A stretch of 64,000 bases of DNA from Isoetes taiwanensis (lineage: Eukaryota > Streptophyta > Lycopodiopsida > Isoetales > Isoetaceae), in assembly GCA_021234155.1 (NCBI GenBank), contig JAJEKV010000046.1, forward strand, positions 5,089,012 to 5,153,011. The letters are read 5' to 3'. Each line of letters opens with the position of its first letter. Within the stretch, counting starts at the first letter, position 1. The notes under the pieces were generated by a model. That model saw only the letters and a list, made by a program, of their open reading frames with translations, made no database searches and had not been told where the DNA came from. The translations under genes were made by a program, and so were the position numbers. Below, piece by piece: positions 22,425-58,648 of the stretch.

Positions 22425-23272
22425 TCTCGCCAAAACAAGAAAATGGCTGGTCCCCTCAGCCATAAAGGGTCTTCATATCTGCTCAAAAGTGTATGAATGA
22501 GGATTATGGTAGAAAGAGAATGTAAGGTGCAAGTGTTGATGGAATGGAGGTGAATATGGTGGTGTGAAGGAGTGAGTGAGTGAAAGAGAGGTAAGAATAA
22601 GTGTAATCATGGTGGTGGAAGTGGAGTGTATGAAGTGAGATGAATGTGTAAATGTTTGAATTTTGCCAAAACAAGAAAATGTGTGAAGAATGAGTATGGA
22701 TATGGTAGGATAGTGATGGAAGTAGAGTGTACAAAGTGAGGTGAAAGTGAGATCTCGCCAAAACAAAAAAAATGTATGCATTCCTGATCCTTGAAAAATG
22801 CAACTCTGCTATGGTGGTAAAGCTGAACTGCAGAGTGCTTCTTTTTGGGAATGAGAACAAGAATAAAGAATCTGAATGGATGGTAGGACCACTTATGGCA
22901 GATGAATAAAGATGGAGAAAGGGTACACCTATCATGGAAACATACAAACAAATTAAACTTGATTCTTGCAACTCTGCTATGATGCTGAAGCTGAATTTGC
23001 AGAGTGCACGTTTGGGGAGATATAATGAAAGAGCATGGCTGAATGGAGGGTAGGACCACAATGAGACAGGTGAATGAAAATGGACAAAGGGTGCTCCTGC
23101 AAATGACACTTGGCAATTAATAAAAATCCCTGTTTTGAAGCTATTTGATGGCTCATCCTTCATACTGGCTAATCTGCAAACATAAACTTAATGAAGACAT
23201 TAGTTCTAAATTTAAGACAAAGTGGAATCCAACCTATCTAGTGTCTAACTTTAATTCTAACTTATTTAAATT
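22425..23272 (-). repeat. Retrotransposon 3' untranslated region with tandem repeats
   Basis: Region between integrase and LTR. It has two copies of a roughly 170-bp unit starting GCAACTCTGCTATG (22,799 and 22,967), each with AAGCTGAA and GGTAGGACCAC in the same order, and a diverged pair of units containing GGAAGT(G/A)GAGTGTA (22,618 and 22,718). The word TCTCGCCAAAACAA occurs at the LTR junction (22,425) and again at 22,753. Tandem repeats in this position are a known trait of Tat/Ogre elements. The minus-strand ORFs here (up to 219 codons) are low-complexity and probably not coding. Confidence 0.6.
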
Positions 23273-24358
23273 CTAGAACATAAAAAGGAACAAGCAAATG
23301 TGCTGATCCCAGTACCTCTTCAAGTGAATAGTGTTGATAGGATTTGGGAGTGACAAACCTGAAGTTAATTCCCTTAGCCAATATGAATTGGTGCCTGCAG
23401 GTTCCAACACTTCATAGGGTCCTTCCCAAAGATTCTCAAACTTACTGGCCGAGTCCTCCCTTGATTTATTCCATTTCAGAACTAATTCTCCAGTCTTGAA
23501 GATCCCTTGTATTTTATGAGCAGCTTTGAAAGCTGCCAAATCCTTAGCTTTTTTAAGCAAGTTAGCATTCTCAGCTTCCATTCTATATTCCTCCAAATGC
23601 AGTAAGGTATCCAATCTTTGTTTGGCACGCAAAGCATGCTCAAAAGGCAAACCGACTTTATGAGCTAACCTCAGAGATGGAAGCTCAAGCTCTACTGGAA
23701 GCACAACTTCAATTCCATAAACTAAGTTAAAAGGAGTATGAGTGGTTGCTGCTTTAATGGTAACTCTATAAGCCCATAGAGCATCCACCAGTTTGACATG
23801 CCAATCCTTTTGATTATCATCCACCATTTTTACGCAAAATGCCCTTCAAAACTTTATTAGTAGCTTCGCGCTTGACCATTACCTTGGGGATAGTAAGAGG
23901 AACTCTTGGTATGTTTGACTTTAAGAATGGTCAATAGATTAGCAATGACTTCATTCACAAAAGGGGTGCCTCTATCGTAATGTAATTGTAAAGGAATACC
24001 AAACCGTGCACAAATATACTCATGTAAGAACTTAGTCATTGTGATGGCATTAGCTTTGTCTCAAAGGAATTGCCTCTCGCCCATTTGGTAAAATAATCAG
24101 AAGCTACAATAATGTGCTTGATGTTGTTGTCCTACTGAAGAGGGGGTTAATAGGACCAATATAATCTAATCCCCAAATTTGGAAGGGTCCCGAGAAATTA
24201 TGGGGTTTAGTGCAGGGGAGAAGGATCCTTTTGCCAAATATTTGGCACTTGTGGCAAGATTTTATAGCAGTATAGCAATCTTTAAATATTGTAGGCCAAT
24301 AGTATCCTGACCTGAGAATTTTCTTGGTAGTAGTATCTCCAGCAAAATGGCCTCCACA
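23273..24358 (-). pseudogene. Ty3/gypsy integrase, frameshifted
   Basis: Reading down the minus strand: a zinc-binding HHCC-type region (CGGHFAGDTTTKKIL, then C-HKC near 24,340-24,240); the catalytic core with first Asp in ASDYFTKW (about 24,085), second Asp in HYDRGTPFVNEV (about 23,975) and the YYPQGNGQ motif (about 23,885). The catalytic Glu codon that should follow sits one base out of frame. The C-terminal region (23,827-23,273) is open and ends with PNPIN-IHLKRYW, typical of gypsy integrase tails without a chromodomain. Would insert retrotransposon cDNA into host DNA if intact; here it is dead. Confidence 0.85.
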
Positions 24359-25417
24359 TAGATGCAAAAGTTGGGTCCCGCCACCCCCATTGTCCATGAG
24401 CCAGTGTTCCAACTGGTCAATGTACAGACCAAACAATGTTGGGGAAAGAGGACATCCCTGGCGGACCCCAATACTGCTAGTGAATGGTTGTCCCGTCATC
24501 CGCGATCGGCTGTACAACTCTCGTATAACCCAGATATCTTGCATTTTGCATATCCACGGGAACCAATAGTTGCCGCAATCTTTCCCATAACTTTTCCCCG
24601 GGTGTCAAAAGCCTTTTCAAAGTCAACAAAGCAACAATACAGTCCCGCCGACGCGGTTTATCCTATCCTCAACCAAAGTCCTCAATGTGAAGATATGATC
24701 AATGGTTGAATGTCTGGTCTGAACCCCGCTTGTATGAGAGAGCTCGCACACTGTTGCTTCTACGCCCACCGTTAATCGTTGCTCAATAATGCCGCCTAGC
24801 GGTTTGGCAAACACCGAACCCGACCATGATTGTTCGGTAATTGGTTGGACTATGTGGATCTCCCCGCCTTGTAAATGGGGACAACTCTGCTTGTGGTCCA
24901 CTGCTGGGGGAATCCTTCATGTAGCGCTCTGTTGAACATAGTGGTTAGGACTGGTACCATAGGCTCCCCGCCCACTTGAGCAACTCTGCTGCGTACCATC
25001 CAGTCCGTTGCTTTCCCATTGGCCAAACGCCGCACCACGGGTAACATCATCCTCTGTGATTTCTAATGTCGGACCATTCTCGGGGGGTATGAGTGCTCGT
25101 GTCCCTTGAGGATCATAGAGTTCTTGCGGTATTGTTCCCACCGCTCATTAGTGATGTTCCCCGTAGGCTGGGCTGGCTTTCGAAGAACCTTGCGCCAAAA
25201 GATTCTAGGATGGCTTTTCAACATGGAAAACATTTCCCTTTGATGACGTGCAATGTACTGAGATTTCTTTGCCTTCAAGAAAGCACGATACTGTGTGGTG
25301 GCATGTGGGCGCATTGCAGGATCTGTGATCTGGCGGAGCCAGCATTTGTATTCCTTACACTCAGCATCAAACCACCGATTACGGGGGAATGTTGCAGCGG
25401 GCATGCTATCCCAAATC
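24359..25417 (-). pseudogene. LINE reverse transcriptase fragment joined to gypsy integrase
   Basis: Minus-strand piece of the same LINE family as 26,333-31,912. It covers the linker between endonuclease and RT (WFDAECKEYK near 25,380, RKPAQPTGNITNERW near 25,150), RT N-terminal motifs (VVPIYKAGRST near 24,850, LGGIIEQRL near 24,790) and GVRQGCPLSPTLFGLYIDQL (about 24,470-24,410). It stops at LMDNGGGG, where the gypsy zinc-finger region begins with only a few bases of overlap. The upstream edge abuts satellite at 25,417. The junction is a mosaic of two element types and not one gene. Confidence 0.85.
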
Positions 25418-26502: not shown

Positions 26503-29500
26503 TTAAATGGTTGACTGGGGGCATATCTGAGCCCTCAAGTCCAGTACTTCCTGAATGTATGATCCGAGTGAGCGCACCGAAGTCGTGCCCAGTATCGTGT
26601 GTAGCGGCTCATCAGGTCTAATCAACTGAGCATAGCGTGTCCGAATCTGATCATATGCTGGGCAGCTCTGGAAAGTGTGACACATCCTCAACAGCTCCCG
26701 TCTGGCAGCACTGACAAACCCTATCCTGACGTGGCTCCCCAATCCATCGACCTGTCTCAATCCGGAGATGGTGGGCACCTGTGCGAATGGAGGCGATATG
26801 CCTGCGCTTTTTCATGGGCAGATGTGAACGTAGGTAGCGCTGTGGGCCTCGTTCTAATGTGGGATTTATGTGCTGCTTGTAATGTGCTGTTTTGACTTGC
26901 TCCAGAGCCCTGGAATCCCAAAGCTTGCTGGAGAAACAAGCATCAAGGTAACATCTCAGGCTGTCACGATCTGCCTCTGTTTCTACCTGGATGCACATGT
27001 GCTCCTGGACATTCCATCTAGTTAGCCACTGCACTCTTTTATCCTTCCAACAATTCTTGAGTCGTTGTGGTCCCATTGCCACTGCATAAGCCAAGTGCGG
27101 TAGATGATCATCATCCATATTTACCACCTTCTGGAAATAGACGATGTGTCTATCAAGGGCCGCTCGCTGAAGTGGCAGGAAACCTGTCTCCTGCAACAAA
27201 ATTTGATATGGGACCGTGGATTTCACTCCGAGTGCCCGTGCTAAGAAGGCCTTCTGCACCTGTTCTAAGTCGCTCCAAGTAGCAAGGGACACCACTGGGC
27301 CCCAGACTTCAACTCGCATAAAAAGAACGGGCTCTACCAATACCCTGAACAGATGTGCCTGATGCCCCCAATCATATAGTTATGCTCTGTGGTTATTGTT
27401 CTGCATTGCATAGAGTGCTTTCCAGCCTGCTGCTACACGCAATCTTATGGAAGTGTCCCAGCATAGTGTAGAAGGAAACTCCACTCCCAGATACTTGTAG
27501 GTGGGTGTCACCTCCACTTGTTGCCCTCGATAAGTGAATGAAGGGGCCTTGGGTGGCGCGAGGATGAGATTAGGACCACCTTGGTCTTGGCGGATTGACG
27601 TTCATGTCGCGTGGCTGGCGGGAATGTATCCGAGCATCTAAGTGAGACCGCATATCCTCCTCGGAGTGTGAGCTAAGAGGTCAACATCGCCTCGTGATAG
27701 ATGAGTTGTCCGATGACTGATGCAAAAGTTGGGTCCGCCACCCCCATTGTCCATGAGCCAGTGTTCCAACCGGTCAATGTACGACCAAACAATGTTGGGG
27801 AAAGAGGACATCCCCTGGCGGACCCCAATATCGCTAGTGAATGGTTGTCCCGTCATCCGCATGATCGGCTGTACAACTCTCATAAACTTGTGATAACGAT
27901 TTTGCATATCCACGGGAACCAATAGTTGCCGCAATCTTTCCCATAACTTTTCCCCGAGGCACGATGTCAAAAGCCTTCGCGAAAGTCAACAAAGCAACAA
28001 TACAGTCCCGCCGATGGTTTTACGCTATCCTCAACCAAAGTCCTCAATGTGAAGATATGATCAATGGTTGAATGTCGAGTCCGAACCCTCGCTTGTATGA
28101 GAGAGCTCGCGACACTGTTGTTTCGCCCACCGGTCAATGTTGCTCAATAATGCCGCCTAGCGGTTTGGCAAACACCGAACCCGACCATGATTGTTCGGTA
28201 ATTGGTTGGACTATGTGGATCTCCCCGCCTTGTAAATGGGGACAACTCGCTTGTGGTCCACCGGGGGGGAATCCTTCATGTAGCGCCTCGTTGAACATAG
28301 TGGTTAGGACTGGTACCATAGGCTCCCCCCCCACTTGAGCAACTCGCCTGCGTACCATCCAGTCCGTTGCTTTCCCATTGGCCAAACACCGCAGGACCAC
28401 GGGTAACATCATCCTCTGTGATTTCTAATGTCGGACCATTCTCATGGGGGGTATGAGTGCTCGTGTCCCTTGAGGATCATAGAGTTCTTTGCGCAGTATT
28501 GTTCCCACCGCTCATTAGTGATGTTCCCCGTAGGTCGGGCTGGCTTTCAAGAACCTTTGCGCCAAAAAGATTCTAGGATGGCTTTTCAACATGGAAAACA
28601 TTTTCCTTTGATGACGTGCAATGTAATTGAGATTTCTTTGCCTTCAAGAAAGCACGATCTTTGTGTGGTGGCATGTGGGCGCATTGCGGGATCTCGTGAT
28701 CCGGGCGAGCCGGCATTTGTATTCCTTACACTCGACATCAAACCACCGATTCACGGGGAATGTTGCGTCCCCTGTGATACCTCTCGGGCATGCTATCCCA
28801 AAACATCTTTTCTCGCAACAAGTACCAAGGAGCTCAATCACCCGTTCTTTGCTGTCGCTCTAGCGTGGGGGCCCGCAAAATTCTGAAAGGTCATCTATGA
28901 GCATATCGGCATAATCCTTTGCACGCTCATAATCCAATGCATAGCGAGGTATACAAGGAGCTGCCAGAGAAGGGTTCTAGCAGCACCGCTAAGCCAACTG
29001 CAGGTAGAGTGGAAGGTGATCTGAGTCTGTCTCCTCATCTCTACTGTCTGTGCCTACCCGAAAGTGGTTGATCAAATGTACATCCTGCTCAGCGACTAAT
29101 AGATAGTCCACCACACTAGATCCTCCACCCTGATTCTCTTGTCTGCAGGTGCACTTACAGGAGGAAGGCCACTGTGCCAGGCCATTACAAATTACCAAGT
29201 CAAAGACACCACATAGTAGAAGCAAGCAACCGCCAAAGCGCGACCGACTATCATCTGATGTTCGTGGCCAAGCCGCCTCCGCGGGGCGCAGCTGTAACAC
29301 ATCCTGAGCCAAAGGATCAAGTCTCATGGGCTGCTCTACTCCTGTCCGTGCATTGAAGTCCCCAAGGAGTACCACACTACCCAACTGTCTATGTTGCTGT
29401 ATGTCATCATATAGATCGATATATGGAGCTAGCCTGTCCACATCTGAGTGGGCATGGTAAAAGTTGCTTTCTGCATGTGGAAAGTAGCAAGCAGCCAAGA

Positions 29501-29800
29501 AGAGAGGGTTGCCACTACAATTCTGCACCCGCACCCACAAGTACCGGTTGTGTCTGTCAATCTTGTGCAGGAAGACCGACTGTGCCAAAGACTCCCGGTA
29601 ATAACAGGCAACCCCTCCATGTCCCCTTGCCCGCAATGCGGCCTATTGAAGACTCGAGAAATATTGATAGCCTAAAAGATCGTAGCCTCAGTGTCTCCGC
29701 GTGCTCCCATGTCTCCATGAGGAAGATGAGATCCATACCGCAAAGAATGTGAGTTGAGACTATGCCCCTTCGCCATGGGAAACCCCTCGACAATTCCAGA
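26503..29800 (-). pseudogene. LINE ORF2: endonuclease, reverse transcriptase, C-terminal Cys motif
   Basis: Order along the minus strand: endonuclease (about 29,790-28,990) with FLMETWEH, LLGDFNARTG, SVVDYLL and SDHLPL, the motifs of APE-type LINE endonucleases; linker (28,860-28,450); RT (28,412-27,638) with LGGIIEQ and TGQPFTSDIGVRQG; then the thumb and C-terminal region (27,340-26,503) with TYKYLG-like, LLQETGFLPLQ, RIETGRW and a CxCC zinc-knuckle-like motif (CQCCQTGAVEDVSHF). The usual Y/FADD box is not readable in one frame near 27,690. At least five frameshifts separate the open segments, so it is inactive. Confidence 0.88.
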
Positions 29801-29828
29801 GACCACCCGAAGGCACATTCCCTATTTG

Positions 29829-31507
29829 TTAGCGCAGAGGCATGCGCAGATTGAGTTGTGGGGAAGAGGGGAAGCAAGAGCGCATCGAAGTCATGTGGAC
29901 AGAGTGAGAAGCAGTAGGGGTTGGGGCAGAGTGAGAAGCAGTAGGAGTTGGGGTGGCATATGACTGAGGAGTAGTGGCAGTGGCAGCAGGGCATGGGGCT
30001 GGAGCAGACGGTGGAGGAGCATGATCAGAGGAGGTGGGGGCTGCAGTTGAATGGCCCGGAGGGTCTGCAGCAACATTCGGTGAGCGAAAAATGTGCATCT
30101 TGCCTCGAACTAGTCCCGCAGCTCCTCCTTGACAGCGGATGCCTCGAACCTTGGTGAGCTCACGCCTGCGGGACTCTTGTTGCACTGGGGTGAGGTCTCG
30201 GTCCACATACAAGGATGTTCCCTTCAATTGCTTGCCCTGGCGCAGTATGGCATCCCGTACTTGCATATCTGCTACTGTGAATATGACAAGATGGTTGTAG
30301 GCAGAACGTCGAGCACCATGACGGCTGGCTCGAGCAATGTGTACAGGCCCAGGCAATGTCATACGATTGATGATCTCATGACGGAGTCGGGTGAATGAGA
30401 TTCTCTCCCTCTTCTTCCGGCAGGCCACGGATCACCAAATTATGACCTCTCCATCTGCGTTCACTAAGCTCACGTGGATCAACGTTTACTGGGACAGCAT
30501 GTACCGGCTGCTGTCTGTGAGTTGAAGGCGCTGTCCGATGTCCATGAACAGGAGGGTCCTGTTGGCGTGGAGGGAATGGTGAAGTAGGGCGTCGTGGTGC
30601 CTGCCTAGACTGACTTCGCATGGGTGGCAGCTGAGGTGCCTGAGATTGCCTCCGCCTTCTGAAGCTGAGAGCTCAGCTCCTGCTGGAATTGTTTCTGCCG
30701 CTCCAACTCGGATACACAACTTTGCAAGGCCTCGTGTGCATTGGCATGGAGTCCTTTCCCCTGTTGGATTGTAGCTTCTCGTAGCTCGTGTGCCTCTTGC
30801 TCTTGAACAAGGGAACGCTGTTCCAACTTTTGTATCCTAGATGCAATTACATCATCCGTCCGATGTGAAGGTGATCTCCATTGTGCTGATCCTGTTCTAA
30901 AAAGGTTCGCTGTAGCAACCCGACTTTTCGTTAGTTGCTATCCGAAATGCCCCCGAGTGGCAATGACATCTGCAATGTCGATCGAAGACGGGGAGATATC
31001 GGTGACCATCTCCCGCTCAATTCTCTCCTTGTCCTTCATTATAACTTCATCTCTGGTAGACATGGTGTCTATTTGTGCCCTGAGGCCAGCAAGAGTCCGC
31101 TATCCCGCTCCCTTTCAAACCGCAACAAGCGAATCTTGTCAAGCAATTGTTGCACTTTGGGTCTCAATGCCTCGCAAACTGTTGCTTTACTATAGCCAGT
31201 TGCTTCTTAAGCACTTGGGGGACGGAGGCTTGTTGCTCTTCTGCCAGGTGTGAGATCTGAGTGGTGTGATCCTCAACCATCGCCTGTGTTTGTCTCCACC
31301 TCTCATGGCATGACTGGTGTGCCATCCTTGTGGAATCAGCGTCGAGGTCTCGCAAAAGCCGGGCTGTGCCGACCGTCTTCTTTGGTGAGCTGAGCTTGAC
31401 GCCTGAGCCTTTGCAAGAGCCTCCTTCTTCATGGAAGAGGCTTCTCCCTTGGCCTGACTGCTAGATCTAGGTTCTTGCGTGGTGGGCCGCCTGTATGCTC
31501 CTCCCAA
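29829..31507 (-). pseudogene. LINE ORF1: coiled coil and L1-type RNA-binding domain
   Basis: Broken into overlapping open segments. The N-terminal part is Ser/Ala/Lys-rich (31,507-31,360). A Gln/Glu-rich coiled coil follows (31,355-31,164 and 30,826-30,605, for example QEQEAHELREATIQQ). Next comes a region with NLVIRGLPEEEGEN (about 30,450), ILRQGKQLKGTSLYVDRDL and QESRRRELTKVRGIR (30,260-30,150), which matches L1 ORF1p-like RNA-binding proteins. The C-terminus (30,080-29,829) is a Pro/Ala/Thr-rich tail with repeated PTPTASHS. Known role of such proteins: bind element RNA as a trimeric chaperone. Dead copy. Confidence 0.75.
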
Positions 31508-43414: not shown

Positions 43415-43568
43415 TAGGTAACTTATTCCAGTTATGTTTCAAATGATACATCACCATATTCTTCAACTGCAATAAATTAATTTCTACCTAGCTTTAATAG
43501 CAGCTCCATATATCTGCACTGCTCTGCCTCTGTAAAATAATGGCAATAGAAAGAGCTGATGCAGCGAG

Positions 43569-43710
43569 AACACGATTGCAAATTAAACGGGAGTGTTGCA
43601 TCACTCCCGTTTCAAAGATTCCCTTTAAAAAAACACCATGTTTCTAAAATAAGCCTTTTTTGATAGTTGTTGAGAATTTCTAGAGGTTTGCATTTTTTTT
43701 CATGCCATTT
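43569..43710 (+). repeat. Left terminal inverted repeat (imperfect)
   Basis: Pairs with 51,700-51,844. The outer 25 bases match at about 21 positions; the rest aligns only with gaps (CAAAGATTCC, then A/T-rich runs, then TTTTGGCCC against TTTTGACCC). It includes a small hairpin of its own, AACGGGAGTG...CACTCCCGTT, that the right end lacks. Confidence 0.6.
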
Positions 43711-43921
43711 TGGCCCATCATTAGGCGAAAACTTTGTACTTATGAAACAGAAATCATAAAAATAGCGAAATTTAGGCATAGACTTGAAGAGACTGAAAGC
43801 ATTACAAAAAAAAGCACCAGAATAGAAAGGAAAAAAAAGTAATATGTTTTTAATAAATTTTTGTACATTAATATTGAAGATTCATTGTAATAAATAATGA
43901 TAATTTTAATATCACGATGAG

Positions 43922-45163
43922 TCAAAGATCTACATCATAGTCCTCCTCATTCTTTTTCTTTGCTCTCTGCCGTCTCGTCCTACGTTCAATCTACTCCTTT
44001 CTTTGGAGACTTAAGTTTTGTATCCTCCTTGTTCTTCTGGAATGGTAGCTAAAGCTACTTCTTTAAGCTCTACAAAGGTTGCCTCGTCGTCTAGTGAGCT
44101 TTCGAGAATGGAGGTCAGTATCTCCGAGGGCGTTAGTTTAGCATAATCGATGAAGACTTGGCCCCTAACTCTTGATTTTCATCCGGTAAAGTAGGTAAGG
44201 CAGCCGGTCTCATCTTCACAAAATGCACGACCTCCTTATCAATATCCACGGCTACACAGATTCGGCCCTTCTTAAGTGCACATGCGATAGTAGTACGAGA
44301 ACCGGAGAAAGCATCAAGCACCCAATCTCCCGGGCCGAGAACATGTCCGGGAGATGGTTGATGAGCTTTTGTGGTTTCGGTAGTGATTCACAATCCCGCC
44401 TTGTGCACTTGGGTCCCGCAATTTACGAAGACTATTGGAAACTCTAGGACGTTTGAAAAGTTTTGACAAAGCGGCAAGTGTTAAAGTGTTCCATGGACCT
44501 CTTCCCATCAAAACTCCAATAAGCTACATGAAGGTACTCTACCTTTGCGAGCAACCTTGGTCCTCCACCATGGTAGTTGATGTTAGCTTTGTACCTAGTG
44601 AAGCATTTAAAGTGATGTTAGCAAAAACAAGAAAACACTTCGAAAACCGTAAAGGAAACACTATTCCTAATACACTACGTAATTAAAGAGAAAAGTAATT
44701 GTATTCGGAATAAGACTTACTGCACAAGGTTTTCATATCCCGCCGAATCGGAGAACCAAAGTGATTTTTGAAAGTTGATTCCACCAAGCCGGTCGCATGC
44801 TCGAATGGAACGTAACTAAACGCCAATGTTTGGCCGTTGAGATCTGCTTGATTCCTTCAATGAAAGCATTAAACTCTAAAAATTTGAAGGGCTGGTCGTC
44901 GTATCTGCTGTCTTTAAGCTTAAACCCGTAGGGAAGATCAGCAATAACCAAAGTAAAGTCCTGTGGCTTAACCGTTCCGACAAGGTTCGTGCAATCACCA
45001 TGAATGATTGAATATAAATTGTTTTGATCAAACATGCGAATCTCTCTCAGTAGTCGGATGGTTCTGGCTCAACAGTTCTTCTTTCAGCTAACGACCTCTC
45101 TTCCCGTGCTGTTCTAACCAAATTCATAAAGCCCTCGGGCAGGTCTTTATTTTTCTTTTTGCT
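43922..45163 (-). pseudogene. Beta-class DNA methyltransferase half, frameshifted
   Basis: Exon 5 begins SKKKNKDLPEGF and meets TGA at 45,049; one base out of frame the reading continues IRMFDQNNLYSIIHGDC and then LVIADLPYGFKLKDSRYDD, where DLPY takes the place of the catalytic (D/N)PP(Y/F/W) motif IV. After a second shift near 44,800 and an intron, YHGGGPRLLAKVEYLHVAYW follows (about 44,570-44,510). Motif I comes last, WVLDAFSGSRTTIACALKKG (about 44,330-44,270), binding S-adenosylmethionine; the order IV before I defines the beta class. The C-terminus reads TPSEILTSILESSLDDEA and ends with a basic-acidic tail near 43,922. Four or so indels in total. Confidence 0.75.
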
Positions 45164-45234
45164 CTAAAGAAAAACAAAACAACAACTGTCAAGAGATCGT
45201 TTGTGCAGAGAAAAGGAATTTTGAGAGTACTTAC

Positions 45235-45373
45235 CCAGCCCTCAAAATTTGGTGCATATTGCACAATGCGCTCGTCGGATGTGGCAATTGGGTAGAGTTC
45301 CTTGCACCTTTCCCATGTTTCGACGTTTAGCTGCTCCATCAAACATGTTTGACATGTTATGACGTTCTTTTGG
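45235..45373 (-). CDS. Exon 4: Cys- and Trp-containing linker
   Basis: Opens with QKNVITCQTCLMEQLNVETW and continues RCKELYPIATSDERIV, ending FEGW at a GTAAGT donor. The CxxC and a later Cys could bind metal, but no complete zinc-finger pattern is present. Confidence 0.65.
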
Positions 45374-45548
45374 CTGCAAGACGTTAAGGAAACAATGAGA
45401 TTAAACGTAAGAATCAAGGCAAAGTAAAAGGAAAACAAATAAAAGTCAAGCTATTTGTATTCTGGAATACAAACTGGTTAACTGGTGATGCTACCTCGAA
45501 ACAATATGCAGAAAATAGTTCTGCTACAGGACAAACACTGCTTGTCTC

Positions 45549-45790
45549 TAGAAAAGCAATGTGTATTCCGGAATACAGATTGCTTCTCTAAAGGAACGCA
45601 ATGTGTATTCCGGAATACACATGCCTTTCTTTAGAGGAGCAATGTGTATTCCGGAATACACAATGCTTTTCTTTACAGGAGCAATGTGTATTCCGGAATA
45701 CACAATGCTTTTCTAGAGACAAGCAATGTGTATTCCGGAATACACATTGCCCGTGTGAAGGAAGGCATGTGTATTCTGGAATACACTATG
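45549..45790. repeat. Array of six palindromes, period 41-42 bp, inside an intron
   Basis: The 16-base palindrome TGTATTCCGGAATACA has copies at 45,562, 45,604, 45,645, 45,687, 45,729 and 45,770; the first lies in a less symmetric context and the last has one central change (TTCTGG). Spacings are 42, 41, 42, 42 and 41. Flanks such as GCAATG/CATTGC extend the symmetry to 22-28 bases in some units. A seventh, weaker copy lies at 45,455-45,472. The array lies in the intron between exons 3 and 4 of the ParB gene. Confidence 0.9.
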
Positions 45791-45850
45791 TACGCCGATG
45801 TTTTTGGGAATCTAACATGCAAAGAGTAAAGTTTGTGTCAGAGAACTTAC

Positions 45851-46080
45851 TTGTGCAATTCCTTTGACATTTCTTCTAGGCTAAACTCCTTATCAACAAC
45901 TTTTTGGAGAAGCTGCTCCAGAAGCTCCGTGTCGGAGAAGCCCTGCATTTCCCTCCAGACGGTAATGGTCATTTCTTTTTTGGGCACGTCCGAGGTTTTT
46001 TTCTTGGCTGTCTCCTTGCCCTTGCTCTTTAACTCCCCTCGCTCGAACATTGTAAATATCTCGTCCTGGAGTTCCCAAAT
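45851..46080 (-). CDS. Exon 3: charged helical linker
   Basis: Reads IWELQDEIFTMFERGELKSK, a Lys-rich stretch (KETAKKKTSDVPKKEMT), then WREMQGFSDTELLEQLLQKV. It looks helical and amphipathic; no catalytic motif. Preceded by a 63-bp intron, short but within plant range, and followed by the intron that holds the palindrome array. Confidence 0.65.
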
Positions 46081-46143
46081 CTGTTCAAGAAGATTTCACG
46101 TCAAATAGTTGGTTTGCTATTCTGGAATACATTTTGTGCTTAC

Positions 46144-47530
46144 CTTGCCATCTCTAAAAGCTAACTGGAACCAGTTGTCGTGGCCAATGAGAGACTGCCT
46201 TTTATTGGCCTTGTCATATTTCAGGCAGCATTCAATGGCACACGCCTCCTTAAGCTCCAAGGAAAACGCTGGCTTCTTAAGGTCCTCACCGTACTTTTCC
46301 TTGAAAATTACATACTCCCTGTGCATAAACCGGATCTTGTCGACAAAGCTCATCTTTAGTTTGTACTCGTTGTCAGCATTGTGGGTGTTGGCAACGATTT
46401 TTGCTTCTTCATCTGTAAGACCACAGTAGACAGCGCAGAGGACGGAGAGGTACCTCGGGTTCTTCTTTTCTTTGTAAAGTTGCCTTCTTGCCTTGAAGCT
46501 ATGATTCCCTCCCAAGACGTAGTGAGTGTAGGTGTCAGCGTTTTCTCTGTCATACTCCTGGGGGGTTGTGCACTGCTCCCTGTCAACAAGGACAACTATT
46601 GGGGCCACATGAGCATTTGGATTGCTCCTTATTCTGTCTTTCAGGTTCCTCAAGTGATCGGCATAAATTTTGCGAACCTGAAGTGGCCTTTCACCAGCTT
46701 CATTTTTCGGAGGAAGCTTCATTGAAGTGACTGGCAAATAAATGACACCTTGCACAAACTTGTGCAGGTTAATCTCTTCCATTTTTTCAGATGTTTTATC
46801 AACTTTTTTTTCCTTAATAGCAACACCAGGTGCTTTACCCTTCCCCTTCTTCTTCTTAGGTTCCTCGGGGACTTCTGTGATTTCAAGCTGCTGTACTTTC
46901 CGCTTCTTTGGTTCTTTAGCAGCTATGGTTGCCCTTGGCCTGCTAAGTTTCTTTGGCCGCACAGGGGGTTCTTCCTCGTCTTGTTCCTGGGAACCTCCAT
47001 CTGATGACCTCCCTGAAGAACTAGCATCTGAGGGTGATGATTGTGACCTTTCTCCATCTGAATGCTCGGACTCACTGACAGGAAAGTCCTCGCTTGTACT
47101 GGTACAAACCTGTCTAATTACTGAACACAGGCTTCTTTTTGACCGGTAGTGTGAAAAGAATTTGTACAGTGCCGGTGGTTGCACACTGACAATTCTAAAA
47201 AATGCGATGTCCACAACTATGAAGCCTTGGGAGGTCTTGAAGGATAGCCTCCCCACCTGACCACCTTGTCCGGCAACTTCCTCAACATCTTTTATTGTCC
47301 CAAGGTTCACAAACTCGGAGTCGGCGTACCTTTTGTTACCAGCACTTTTACAGACGTACAAAAACGTCAGTGTGCTGTATTTTCCATCTGCACCCCTGGT
47401 TACGAACCACTGCGTTTGAAAGTTTTCGTAAATAGCAGGTTCGTCCGTGTCAGCGGTGTGCTTTTGTGGGTGTGGACGCTTAGGCTTATGAGATTTCTTT
47501 GATGCCCTCTTGCTTCCTACTTCCCTGCCA
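46144..47530 (-). CDS. Exon 2: N-terminal region and ParB-like domain
   Basis: Uninterrupted for 1,387 bases, giving residues 3-465. The ParB signature is clear: APIVVLVD, then YVLGGNHSFKARRQL (residues 340-354), where GGNHS-x-x-A corresponds to the GNHR-x-x-A box of ParB/Srx-fold proteins, followed by VYCGLTDEEAKIVANTHN, the LT-x-x-EA helix. In the ParB family this fold binds CTP or acts as a nuclease; the arginine of GNHR is serine here. The acceptor is ACGTTTCAG and the donor GGCAAG/GTAAGC. The lack of stops over 460 codons, next to a badly decayed partner gene, suggests recent function or a younger age. Confidence 0.8.
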
Positions 47531-47780
47531 CTGAAACGTTTAAAACAACAATGTTAAGACAGAAATTCGAACGAAAACTGTATTCCAGAATAACATTTAC
47601 TAATCTTGTGCCCTAAAGGCCAGAAAAAGACAGGAAAACAAGCAGAAATATAGTAACTCTAAGACAATTTTTTGTGCCTTAATTGGACTCGAAATTGTTA
47701 TTTTAACCTTTAAAGTGGTCTGTTTTAGCTAAAAGGTGTCTTCATTAAGTGCTAAAAAACAAGAGTTTCCAAAAAGACAA

Positions 47781-47850
47781 GCAAAGTGTATTCCGGAATA
47801 CACTTTGCCCTTCGGGTGAAGTGCAAAGTGTATTCCGGAATACACTTTGC
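47781..47850. repeat. Pair of perfect 28-bp palindromes 42 bp apart
   Basis: Two identical 28-base palindromes centred on TGTATTCCGGAATACA, with arms GCAAAG/CTTTGC, at 47,781-47,808 and 47,823-47,850. Same core and same spacing as the intron 3 array, but different outer arm bases. They lie in the first intron of the ParB gene, 60-130 bases inside the start codon. Confidence 0.9.
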
Positions 47851-47908
47851 CCTACAAAACCAAATCAGGAAACAAAAGAAAGACGTACTATGTACTTTAT
47901 ATGCTTAC

Positions 47909-47916
47909 CTGTCCAT
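47909..47916 (-). CDS. Exon 1: start codon mini-exon
   Basis: Only ATGGACAG is coding, followed by donor GTAAGC. Joined to exon 2 it gives MDSGREVGSKRAS in the same frame as the long exon, and no other in-frame ATG lies in the first 60 codons of exon 2. The preceding leader contains half-copies of the GGAATAC motif. Confidence 0.6.
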
Positions 47917-48242
47917 TGTCTTCGCTATGTAAATCGGAATACAGCAAATGTATATTGATCGGAAGGCGCTCGGGCTGGCGACTAAATCTCTGAAAGCGGA
48001 ATACGCAACTGAGGCGCTCGATTTTCCTTTTTAAAGGTAGGCCACTGTCAGTTGTGTTTTTCTATGTAATGCGGAATACGTCTTGTCCAAACACTCTGGA
48101 CAAGTGTATTCTGGAATAGCATCTTTGCACACACACAGCAAATGCTGCACACAAAATACTATTCCGGAATAGCATTTGTATTCTTGAATATCATTAGTCC
48201 AATCGACTTGTGAGTTAGTAACAAGCCCACAATTTTTTGCAG
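47917..48242. promoter_or_regulatory. Shared divergent promoter region with degenerate palindromes
   Basis: The 326 bases between the ParB start codon and the first visible exon of the plus-strand gene hold half-sites CGGAATAC at about 47,934, 47,998 and 48,072, near-palindromes GTATTCTGGAATAG (48,106) and CTATTCCGGAATAG (48,159), and TGTATTCTTGAATA (48,178). CCTTTAAAAAGG at about 48,028-48,038 is a TATA-like candidate about 110 bases upstream of the ParB ATG. The density suggests binding by an element-encoded protein. Confidence 0.45.
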
Positions 48243-51200
48243 TTGTTTGACATGGTTAACCGCTTCGTGAACAAACTTCCACCACCATTTGTTTGCCCAA
48301 GTACCTCTACTTCAGATGGAACACAAGACGGAGATGCTTCTTCAACACCTACCTCGACAAGGTCTTTGTTGCTTCTCGAAGACACTCCGAGTCCAGTAAC
48401 TAGCAGACTGCCACCACCTTTCCAACCCTCTCCAAGTCCAGTAGGAAACCGGCTGCCACCACCTTTCCAACCCTCACATTTGCCGCGTAGCAATCTTCCA
48501 CCACCATTTGTACCATCCCCCGACACTACAATGGCTCGACCTCAGCAAATTTTTCGGAACCGACTACCTCCGCCGTTTATTGTTTCTCCATCTTCACTCA
48601 CATGCCAGGAATACAGCACGTTCTGAAGACTGCGAGATCCTCCATCGCTTCTCCCACCACGATTTCACTACAAATGAAGACGACCCCGCAAAGATTCATC
48701 TACACCTCTTCACACAAACGTGGTGACACATGGGTTTGCAGAATTTCAGTCTGCTTTAAGAGACATGTTTGAACGAACTCCCTGTGAAGACGCTACAACA
48801 ACTTTCGCTGGCACATCATATGGTGGCCCATCTCCTTCATTCAACACTGCACCTCCGCCTTATCCGGGTACAGCTTCACGTGGTTTGTTCTCCTCTACAA
48901 GCACACCACTAAGGGTAGAGGAGGTCACCCCCAGAGTAGAACTCTCTTCAGAAGATGAAGACACCAACGAAGTGCAACGAGATTACACATTCTCTAGCCA
49001 ATCCACCAAGAAATTCAAGGTGGATTTTAGTTTGAGAGCATGCTCCTCTGTAAGAAGAAGAAACCTTATGGACGAGCACAAAATGAGAAGACTTTTAAGA
49101 AGTAAATGCTGCTCATTGGGTTGCATCAACAAATTTAACATGGCTAAATTACGAGCAATTAGAGACAACTACAGTTCAATGACATTGGCTGACCGTAATG
49201 CCTATTTGGCCTATCATGTAAGACCAGACATAACACCTTCTTGCACTACATTAACCGTCAAGAAGTTTGCGGAAATGTGCTTTATGGTTGTCCACCGTTT
49301 AGGGTCCACGAGAATGTCTAGAATACACAAAAGATCGGACAAAAATCCAAAGAATTGATGATCATTGTGGACCAAGAAGAGTTATAACCATGCATGCCCT
49401 TCTTCTGTGTGTCATGGATGGAGAAATATTTTAGAGAAACATGTGAGAAGTCTGCCTAACAAGAACATGTATCATTTAACCGATAACATCACCAAAAAGA
49501 TGTTTTTAATGAGTACAAAGAGACTTGCACTCAAACTTGAAAGACATCTCTTACTCACACTTCACCGTGATGTGGAAAAGTGAATTCGGTTTAGTGAAAA
49601 TTCCCGGAGACATAGAATGTCCGTTTGTTCAAGGTGTCGTAAATTAAAGAGTCAAAGAGAAACCAAAAAACAGAGGTCGAAAAGAAGTAAGCTCATGTTC
49701 TCCAATCTCTCACTTGTTTTAAAGATAATGCTTTGACCTCATTTCTTCTCTGATATTTATGCAAATGAACCTTGCTAGACATCGTGAACAACAAGCGTGC
49801 CAGAGAGAAGAAAGCTTGCCAAACACGTAAAAAAAAAAAAGCTCTTGAACGTCCAATTTGCAATATATATGTCATGTGATTGATGGAATGGACCAAAAAA
49901 ACTACTCTACCGCATTTCTTGAACATTCCTAAAGATGTGCCGAGGAATGTTTTGTTAAGGTCCACCTTGTAGGAGCTATGGTCTTCAAAGGAAGTCTAAA
50001 GTGCAAAGTATTCTTGACGTATCCAAACTTGCATGGTGACCCGAACCTCACAATTACAATTCTTAACAAGGTCCTGTGCGAGCAAGAGCAATTACCACCA
50101 GTGCTTTACCTGCAACTTGACAATACTACAAGGGAGAACAAGAACCAAACACTCTTTATGCGTCTTGTGCCATGTTAGTGGAGCTAGGGATCTTTAGAAA
50201 AGTGAAGCTGGGTTTCTTACTTATAGGCCACACTCATGATCAAATTGACCAAATGTTCAAAGATTTTTACTCAATGCGCCTCGGAAAAAGGAAGAAGGCT
50301 TTCTCTTCCTACTTTAGTTCAATTATTGAAGATTCTTACACTCCCACTCCAAAGGATCGATCTTCTTAAAGAGACTGCTGATTTCGAGAGATTTTATTTT
50401 CTCTCAACGTTCGCAGAGAGAACAAGTCAGGAACAAATTGAATGATCTCACCTTTCAACATCACATCAAGTTCTACTTGAAGGATGACCAGAGTTTCTTA
50501 CAGGGCAAGAAGTATACCACAACTAAGGACTGGAGTCCACCAGAGGGATTACGCTTCCTTAAATATATTCCAGACACTTCCTTCAGAGAACGTCTTTGAG
50601 CAACTTCCTCTCAAAAATCCTAAGGAGTCCAAGCGTAAGAAAAAGTACCCCGAGTCATCCTTAAAAGCCATAGAAAATGGAATTTCCTCAGGCTTTAAGT
50701 ACTTCTTAGAAAGAAGATCGAATGTGGTGGAGTAACTTCTTTCTCGAACGTAAAAAATTGTTGTGAAAAATATAGCTCTAAGACAGTTTGCAAGAACCAT
50801 TTCAATGGCCTAACACCTTCCATCAACCCCAAAGACCAAGCGTGTCCAAGCAATGCTACGTTAGCACCTCGCAGAGAAGAAGACGAGGATCGAGTCATGT
50901 ACCTCGGACCAAGACGCAGAATGAGCCTCAAGGTAATATCCGCGAAAATTACCAAGGGTATGCTAATTGCTCTTCCCTCTTGAGGAGGATGACAAAGGTC
51001 GACTTTTCTCGATAGCAAAAGTGCTTGACACGATCAAGGAGGAAGGCTTAGTCACTAAACTCAAGATTCATTGGCTTGCAACACGCTTTCGAAAAATGCT
51101 TTTGAAGGTAGATATGAGTTAGAAATGAGAAGCCAAGGAAAAGGGAGAAAGTCCAAGAAGGTGGGTTGTATGGATGAGCTGATCCTTAATGACGCGTGAC

Positions 51201-51466
51201 TATATTATGCTATGATTTTAAATTGAAATCGACAATCGCGTCTCTTGGGAGGACTATCAATTTGCTTAAAAAAGCTTGTAATTACGAAGAAGAGGATGAA
51301 GAAGGTGGTGGAAATGCTTCACCATCTGTTGATAGTGATGAGGAAGATAACTCAAGCACTTCCTCTAGTGATAGTGTAAGAAGTGAAGGTGATGAGGATG
51401 GCATAAATGAACATGATGACGTCCTGGATCCCTCTCTCATCACTCCTCACACTTTTGTACATAACT
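48243..51466 (+). pseudogene. DUF7869-like, possibly transposase-related protein with LPPPF repeats
   Basis: Starts after an acceptor (ATTTTTTGCAG) with ATG at 48,252. The N-terminus has five LPPPF motifs (48,270-48,590) in a Ser/Pro/Thr-rich sequence. A basic region with KCCSLGCINKF and ADRNAYLAY follows (49,080-49,210). Later, in shifted frames: NITKKDVF-like (49,490), a CPFVQG region (49,620), KDVPRNVLLRSTLVGAMVF (49,935-49,985), LPPVLYLQLDNTTRENKN (50,092-50,145) and LGFLLIGHTHDQIDQMF (50,210-50,260). The LQLDN...GHTHDQID pair is characteristic, from memory, of the eukaryotic DUF7869 family, often repetitive and transposon-like. The C-terminus contains YLGPRRRMSLKVISAKITKG (50,900-50,960). 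At least six frameshifts; not functional. Confidence 0.7.
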
Positions 51467-51699
51467 GAGTCTTAGAAAAAGACTGTAAATTTTGCATGTG
51501 AATATGAAGATTCTATCTGTAAATTTTGAGAATACTACAGTTTCAGTTACGGACTTACTTCAACTGTTTGTTAAATATTTTATCCTCTGAAATTAGAGAT
51601 TCTCTCGTAAAATATACTTCAAGAACATTCTATTTGCTAAGAAAAGTGACACTTTAAAAATGTCAATTCTTTGGTTGCACAAAAAAATTAGTCATTTTG

Positions 51700-51844
51700 G
51701 GGGGGTCAAAATAGAATTTCATGCATCTTTTTTTTTTTAACCTAGTTTTACCCCATTTTTGTAAAAAAAAAAAAGGAATCTTTGAGGAATATTCCTTTCG
51801 CTCTCGTTTCGATGATTTGCTTCCGTTTAATACGCAATCTTGTT
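51700..51844 (-). repeat. Right terminal inverted repeat (imperfect)
   Basis: Mate of 43,569-43,710. The outer edge is set by the loss of similarity beyond AACAAGATTGC and by the CGAG that follows in both flanks. Confidence 0.6.
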
Positions 51845-52251
51845 CGAGAAAAATCTTCAGTTACTTTTATGGGAAATCTTACTGAGTTACTGAAGATTTA
51901 CTAAATCTTTTGTGGGCCATTGCACGTCACATATTCTTAAAACCTCCAGCAGTCATTTTATAATATCTTTCCATCACTGCAGCAAGAATAAATGTTGTCA
52001 AAACTTGTATGGAGATTTGAATTTTCTTGTATGTTCTAAGATTGTAACAATGCCCAACTTACTTGAATATGAGGATGGAACACTGTCACTGAATGGGAAC
52101 CCATCACAAAGCTGGTGAAGACTAATGCTTCTATCTATAAATTTGAATACGAAGATTAGCCTACAGGAGAAATTGGAGGCCATGTAGAACTGTCCATGGA
52201 CTTCACGACATATTTTAAAAACATACATTTAAGGCCTCAATGTGAGGTTTT
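51845..52251. other. No gene seen
   Basis: AT-rich spacer between the transposon and the next retroposon. A short open plus frame at 51,912-52,118 has no similarity I recognise. Confidence 0.4.

Positions 52252-58509: not shown

Positions 58510-58648
<139 letters not shown>

Follow-up and report, generated by a model that had tools for sequence, protein, structure and literature searches.

A fusion of a ParB-like domain to a DNA methyltransferase has been described in the brown alga Ectocarpus, where the transposon Sola1-1_Ec32 encodes a 1104-residue ParB-like/methyltransferase protein opposite its Sola1 transposase (Dinatale et al. 2025, PMC12477816). In the available passages of that account, the authors suggest that such proteins act on the transposon that encodes them, binding and modifying it, and, citing Iyer et al. 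2011 and Petroll et al. 2025, report similar proteins in green and red algal transposons (PMC12477816). Among the papers listed in our literature searches, judged by title and the opening of the abstract, this is the one that describes the fusion in transposons of eukaryotes. The locus considered here lies in a 64,000-nucleotide stretch of the genome of Isoetes taiwanensis (assembly GCA_021234155.1, contig JAJEKV010000046.1, positions 5,089,012 to 5,153,011 of the forward strand), referred to below as the window. Both the ParB–methyltransferase fusion gene and the transposon that contains it are real. The two elements are likened by domain make-up and layout: each large DNA transposon has a ParB-like domain (in Isoetes a likely one) and an N4C/N6A-type DNA methyltransferase encoded opposite a transposase (in Isoetes a candidate one). 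They differ in that the algal element is 21.5 kb long, whereas the Isoetes element is 8.3 kb long, resides in a land plant, and encodes a protein of about 910 residues in six exons. A first-pass annotation of this stretch had set a spliced eukaryotic version inside a transposon beside the fusions known from phages and bacteria; given the Ectocarpus element, as far as the available account describes it, novelty in kind is not supported (PMC12477816). What appears to be new is the family-specific arrays of palindromes and their co-variation with the protein, since the available passages on Sola1-1_Ec32 mention no palindrome arrays. Leaning slightly beyond an even chance, we read the gene as an accessory gene of the transposon, the product of which would bind the palindromes of its own family through the ParB-like part and mark element DNA through the methyltransferase.

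The palindromes (TGTATTCCGGAATACA) are 16 bp long, are often 41–43 bp apart, and occur in the introns and the upstream region of the ParB–methyltransferase gene. With one mismatch allowed, the pattern GTATTCYGGAATA has 26 strand matches in the window, most sites being counted twice, as compared with an expected 0.16. All 17 sites listed between 44136 and 48229 fall outside the coding exons, though exons make up 64% of this interval; the count used approximate ends for exons 5 and 6, and when the sites are treated as six independent clusters the p value is about 0.002. In a survey of 30 loci that includes the window copy, 382 sites with up to three mismatches were found outside exon 2 and none inside it, and 174 of the 237 spacings below 130 bp were 41–43 bp. 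The entire genome (1,658,258,908 bases in 1,110 contigs) contains 3,392 exact sites and no match to the reversed pattern, which rules out a general motif of this genome. The least conserved position of the core is the central CpG (1.30 bits); TTCTGG and TTCCAG predominate among the variants. In the array at 45456–45785 and in loci L001–L030, these variants are C-to-T or G-to-A changes, as expected from deamination of 5-methylcytosine (5mC) deposited by the host. The arrays are tandem-like, their flanks are partly conserved, and isolated palindromes are mostly imperfect, features that would also fit intronic tandem repeats that gene conversion and expansion of the arrays maintain, or RNA hairpins with a role in splicing or small RNA, with no dedicated DNA-binding protein. 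We consider this explanation distinctly unlikely. The core carries 1.78 bits as compared with 0.46 for the flank (277 sites chosen by their core, so that the comparison is biased), the spacing is near whole helical turns, and palindromes are also present upstream of the start codon. In a second family, exact palindromes lie in varied flanks, and GTAT-N6-ATAC is kept in the palindromes of all three families compared below.

Co-variation of palindrome and protein was assessed with six further loci, L045 and L046–L050, the latter five being taken from 150 genomic matches to the methylase profile PF01555 because their match ranges were unusual or their open frames long. The loci comprise three families. 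(i) L046, L047, L049, and L050 belong to family 1 with the window copy; their ParB parts are 68–97% identical to it, depending on the stretch, and the window palindrome is kept, including in L046 and L050, where the ParB part is 86 and 84% identical, respectively. (ii) L045, a broken copy with 34% identity, represents family 2 and has 15 sites of a different palindrome, GTATAAATTTATAC, with 6 of the 14 spacings at 30–32 bp. (iii) L048 represents family 3 (52% identity in the ParB part and 59% in the exon-6 part) and has five GTATGAATTCATAC sites, three of them 114–116 bp apart. By coordinates, no exact site among these lies inside a stretch that matches an exon; one site in L045 (4010) is where the beginning of exon 2, unmatched in that copy, might be located. 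The methyltransferase pieces of families 2 and 3 are 68% identical, and their palindromes are also closer to each other, being one base apart per half-site. In the genome, GTATGAATTCATAC occurs 64 times (control, 11) and GTATAAATTTATAC 12,556 times (control, 17); judging by the latter count, family 1 may be outnumbered by family 2. Locus L045 (C1030:18303500-18309500) adjoins a family-1 copy, L034.

The simplest cause of this co-variation would be a protein encoded by the element, and either of its two proteins may be responsible. The second gene encodes a candidate transposase with DUF7869 (PF25273; E = 1.8e-18 and 9.7e-16 in the window) and is divergent from the ParB–methyltransferase gene. 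Homology to it is found on the opposite strand at the same place in all six of the 10-kb copies compared, although it is broken in several. This protein would co-diverge with the palindromes too, and several palindromes lie between the two divergent genes. The palindromes could thus be sites for the candidate transposase, or for a host protein, with the ParB-like/methyltransferase protein acting elsewhere or methylating without them. We take this to be unlikely, though it has to be reckoned with: the six 10-kb copies together have 84 sites, of which only 1 is well inside the DUF7869 half, the window palindromes are central in the element and away from its termini, and in families 2 and 3 the palindromes are again located among the exons of the ParB–methyltransferase gene.

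In one copy of the gene, L046 (C976:451478-456478), exons 2–6 can be spliced by the GT-AG rule without changing a single base, to give an open frame of 910 residues, or 908 with an alternative acceptor. Exon 1 was not located in this reading, and exon 6 is open as far as the examined stretch goes, which ends before a stop codon. The domain in exon 2, at about residues 253–405, is likely to be ParB-like. The strongest match is that of the family-3 relative L048 to the ParB-like profile PHROG_1033 (4.1e-6), a match that L046 lacks. Weak scores were obtained with the ParB-like profile phrog_723 (0.32 for L048), with the ParB model TIGR03764 (window protein, 0.0056; L046, 0.0092; no match in L048), and with DUF6551, which we take to be related to ParB (0.008–0.057 across the window protein and its relatives). 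No Pfam ParB model matched the 626 residues that can be read in the window. Searches with the ParB part and with the conceptual protein gave no match at E ≤ 0.001 among 1,042 and 7,993 scored candidates, respectively, and no relative of exon 2 was confirmed in viral contigs or prokaryote genome contigs. The window copy alone does not confirm the ParB assignment of the first-pass annotation: PF02195, the profile that it had proposed, is unmatched in the window protein, and the PHROG_1033 match of a diverged relative is the only clear one to a ParB profile. In bacterial ParB/parS partition systems, the parS sites are palindromes, about 16 bp long, that cluster close to the gene. The Isoetes element resembles these systems in its likely ParB-like domain and in having clusters of palindromes of that length close to its gene, but differs in the absence of a PF02195 match, in the attached methyltransferase, and in being a eukaryotic transposon. 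The N-terminal domain (residues 28–140, positions 47119–47457) is beta-rich in a single-sequence model of low confidence (predicted local distance difference test score (pLDDT) 55.6), for which no match at E ≤ 0.001 was found in the PDB; diverged forms of this domain are present in L046 and L048.

The methyltransferase matches PF01555 in L046 (2.7e-19, profile positions 132–219), in L048 (4.1e-19, positions 47–217), and in the piece of the window gene that contains motif I (2.3e-7), whereas the window piece with motif IV, taken alone, matched no methylase model in Pfam. The N4/N6-type, beta-order methyltransferase predicted earlier is supported, and of the two profiles suggested for checking the prediction, this one matches and PF02195 matches nothing. 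In the open reading of L046, DLPYGF (motif IV) precedes DAFSGSGTT (motif I) in a single domain, which is the motif order of the beta class. The DNA methyltransferase profile phrog_67 was matched at 1.5e-25 (query residues 9–244), and the NCBIfam model of CcrM at 1.7e-12, which is under the cut-off of that model. The best match in the PDB was CcrM (6pbd, 1.4e-10, query residues 108–257), followed by MboIIA (7.9e-9) and RsrI (5.4e-7). CcrM-type enzymes have the consensus motif DPPY, and SPPY marks N4-cytosine enzymes. The Isoetes protein shares the order of motif IV and then motif I with CcrM and related beta-class N6-adenine methyltransferases, but it has DLPY, has an N-terminal domain and a likely ParB-like part in addition, and is encoded by a spliced nuclear gene. 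Because of the CcrM-like matches and DLPY, adenine is favored as the methylated base. All 150 scored matches to PF01555 in the genome (of 1,443 candidates) exceed the curated cut-off, a number that counts methylase domains and not fusions. A protein search with the L046 methyltransferase gave 18 matches at E ≤ 0.001 among 891 scored candidates. Four of these (P0001–P0004) are public proteins on contigs of 901–2179 bp that match the exon-6 part: P0001–P0003 are 87–93% identical (over about half), and P0004 is 45% identical. The clear divergence of P0004 suggests that the protein family may extend to other organisms. The other 14 are more distant (E from 7e-9 to 1e-5), and 6 of them are annotated as adenine-specific at the source.

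In the window, joining of five minus-strand exons by the GT-AG rule, the fifth read from 45163 downward, reproduces the 626 open residues of the first-pass annotation, with the GGNHS box at residue 343 (46498–46512), in the likely ParB-like domain, and the PKKRKV motif at residue 210 (46894–46911), in the linker. The reading is closed by an in-frame stop at 45049–45047. The five exons stand, but not the length given for the gene, because related copies show a sixth exon. Motif IV, DLPYGF (44922–44939), and motif I, DAFSGSRTT (44289–44315), were both found downstream of the 626-residue part as had been predicted, in other frames. The methyltransferase of the window copy is broken, with an in-frame stop and about seven frame changes relative to copy L031. 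Additional introns were ruled out as the source of these breaks, the same stretches being open in related copies. Part of the frame changes may be assembly errors; the assembly was made from Illumina, Nanopore, and Bionano data, according to the consulted part of its description (PMC8566536).

At least 95 matches to exon 2, at 92 places (three of which are split in two), are present in the genome; they are 66–100% identical, and many are open. These counts are lower bounds because 92 of 5,246 candidates were scored. Among the 30 surveyed loci, with open meaning open over at least 93% of the exon, exon 3 is present in 29 and open in 21, and exon 4 is present in 25 and open in 17. Exon 6 is open throughout in two (L039 and L044) of the eight stretches examined; in L031, exon 6 is open and exon 5 contains a stop. 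A greater degree of damage to the methyltransferase half than to the ParB half was considered and dropped, since exon 2 had served to rank the loci and Nanopore reads had gone into the assembly. Many copies of the gene, the window copy among them, are broken, which would suit a passenger that the transposon captured from a prokaryote and that has no function in the element. This explanation is very improbable. For 19 open copies of exon 2 (171 pairs, 23 of which were dropped for a dS ≤0 or >1.5 or a failed calculation), the median ratio of nonsynonymous to synonymous substitution rates (dN/dS) in the 148 usable pairs is 0.113 (5–95% range, 0.065–0.337) and none is 1 or more, values that are biased by the selection of copies for being open. 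The fusion also recurs in three diverged families of this genome and, by the available account, in algal transposons (PMC12477816). The pair formed by the window copy and L024 has a dS of 0.034 and a dN/dS of 0.74, a value to be expected of recently dead copies. The identity of locus L030 (1501–2148) to the window copy is 79% over exon 2 but reaches 97% within the ParB-like part, a difference suggestive of gene conversion or recombination between subfamilies.

The ends of the element (Table 1) were defined by comparison with the six 10-kb copies together with the terminal inverted repeats (TIRs) and target-site duplications (TSDs). Homology to the window starts at 43567 in L031, 43569 in L034, and 43540 in L033, yet in L033 the TIR starts as in the window; it stops at 51844–51848 in L032, L033, L035, and L036, the remaining ends being missing or outside the stretches compared. 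L033 is flanked on both sides by CCAT. With up to one mismatch, the TIR pattern has 712 + 713 matches in the genome and its reversed control none. At least 19 oppositely oriented pairs 4–15 kb apart occur among the 100 matches listed, and all 10 pairs checked at a spacing of 8.2–8.7 kb have identical 4-bp flanks. TSDs of 4 bp are a feature of the Sola superfamily, and those of the Isoetes element agree with Sola, to which the Ectocarpus element belongs. The TIRs, TSDs, and GT-AG introns bear out the proposal of a spliced eukaryotic gene inside a transposon. Bacterial contamination, which had been thought unlikely, was rejected as very unlikely given the introns, the TIR/TSD structure, and the copies over many contigs. 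Elsewhere in the window, retroelement remains occupy 22500–24604 and 26600–31000; one piece matches an H2C2 integrase and, more weakly, a reverse transcriptase, and another, of the endonuclease/exonuclease/phosphatase type, lies where the GC content is higher. A perfect (GA)56 run is at 58512–58623.

Table 1. Features of the transposon and its two genes, in window coordinates
Feature	Coordinates	Strand	Basis
Whole DNA transposon, 8,276 bp	43569..51844		Homology ends of copies, TIRs and TSDs
Left 4-bp TSD, CGAG	43565..43568		Identical bases at 51845-51848
Right 4-bp TSD, CGAG	51845..51848		Identical to left
Left TIR, AACACGATTGCAAATTAAACGGGAG	43569..43593	+	Genome matches to TIR pattern
Right TIR, imperfect copy of left	51820..51844	-	Inverted repeat
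Exon 1, ATGGACAG	47909..47916	-	GT-AG joining
Exon 2: N-terminal domain, linker with PKKRKV, likely ParB-like domain	46144..47530	-	GT-AG joining
Exon 3	45851..46080	-	GT-AG joining
Exon 4, contains CQTC motif	45235..45373	-	GT-AG joining
Exon 5: linker plus motif IV of the methyltransferase; in-frame stop and frame changes in window copy	44721..45163	-	
Exon 6: remaining methyltransferase with motif I; frame-broken in window	44012..44594	-	Ends from sequence and relatives
Intron-3 array, seven palindromes TGTATTCYGGAATACA; last six spaced 41-42 bp	45456..45785		
Intron-1 palindromes at 47579, 47787, 47829	47579..47844		
Intergenic palindromes, diverged, between the ParB–methyltransferase and DUF7869 genes	47928..48192		
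DUF7869 gene, candidate transposase, frame-broken	48252..51465	+	Ends from open pieces; domain 49933-50366

Several observations weigh against an accessory protein that binds the palindromes and methylates the element. The ParB assignment is weak. The best ParB profile score of L046 itself is that of phrog_723 (0.026); DUF6551 scores no better on L048 (0.010) than an unrelated phage-connector model (0.011); PF02195 is unmatched in the window protein, in the ParB parts of L046 and L048 (E ≤ 1), and in the entire genome (0 matches); PDB searches with the ParB part, as one copy or as a 19-copy profile, find no ParB; and the single-sequence AlphaFold model of the region is unusable (pLDDT 34). As for the palindromes, the co-variation comprises three families only, L048 has one exact family-2 palindrome in addition to its own, and the protein that recognizes the sites could instead be the DUF7869 protein or a host factor that diverged along with them. 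Exact sites account for 128 of the 272 sites near another site, as compared with 4 of the 110 isolated ones, so that array homogenization explains part of the conservation. Both genes are broken in the window copy, and exon 5, present in 23 of the 30 surveyed loci, is open in 7 and thus mostly broken.

According to the accessory-gene reading, the ParB-like domain would use its own family's palindromes as parS-like binding sites, and the spacing of 41–43 bp, about four helical turns, would place neighboring sites on the same face of the DNA and favor cooperative loading. Element DNA would then be marked by the methyltransferase tethered to this domain, a beta-class enzyme that probably acts on N6 of adenine. 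The benefit would most likely be epigenetic, either because marked copies resist host silencing or because the mark switches a putative divergent promoter shared by the two genes. A fuller version is more tentative, and we would put it somewhat below an even chance: a family-specific, parS-like address system, in which the ParB-like/methyltransferase protein of each family would recognize that family's GTAT-N6-ATAC palindrome, with its family-specific core, at helical spacing in the introns of its own gene, and the N6-methyladenine that it places on its own copies would tell self from host and allow escape from silencing. In the available account, the published proposal of self-modification names no candidate sites (PMC12477816); the palindromes give it a concrete, family-specific candidate target and make the self-binding proposal testable. 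If this reading is true, a land-plant transposon would be writing a DNA mark other than 5mC, as a possible counterpart to silencing by host methylation.

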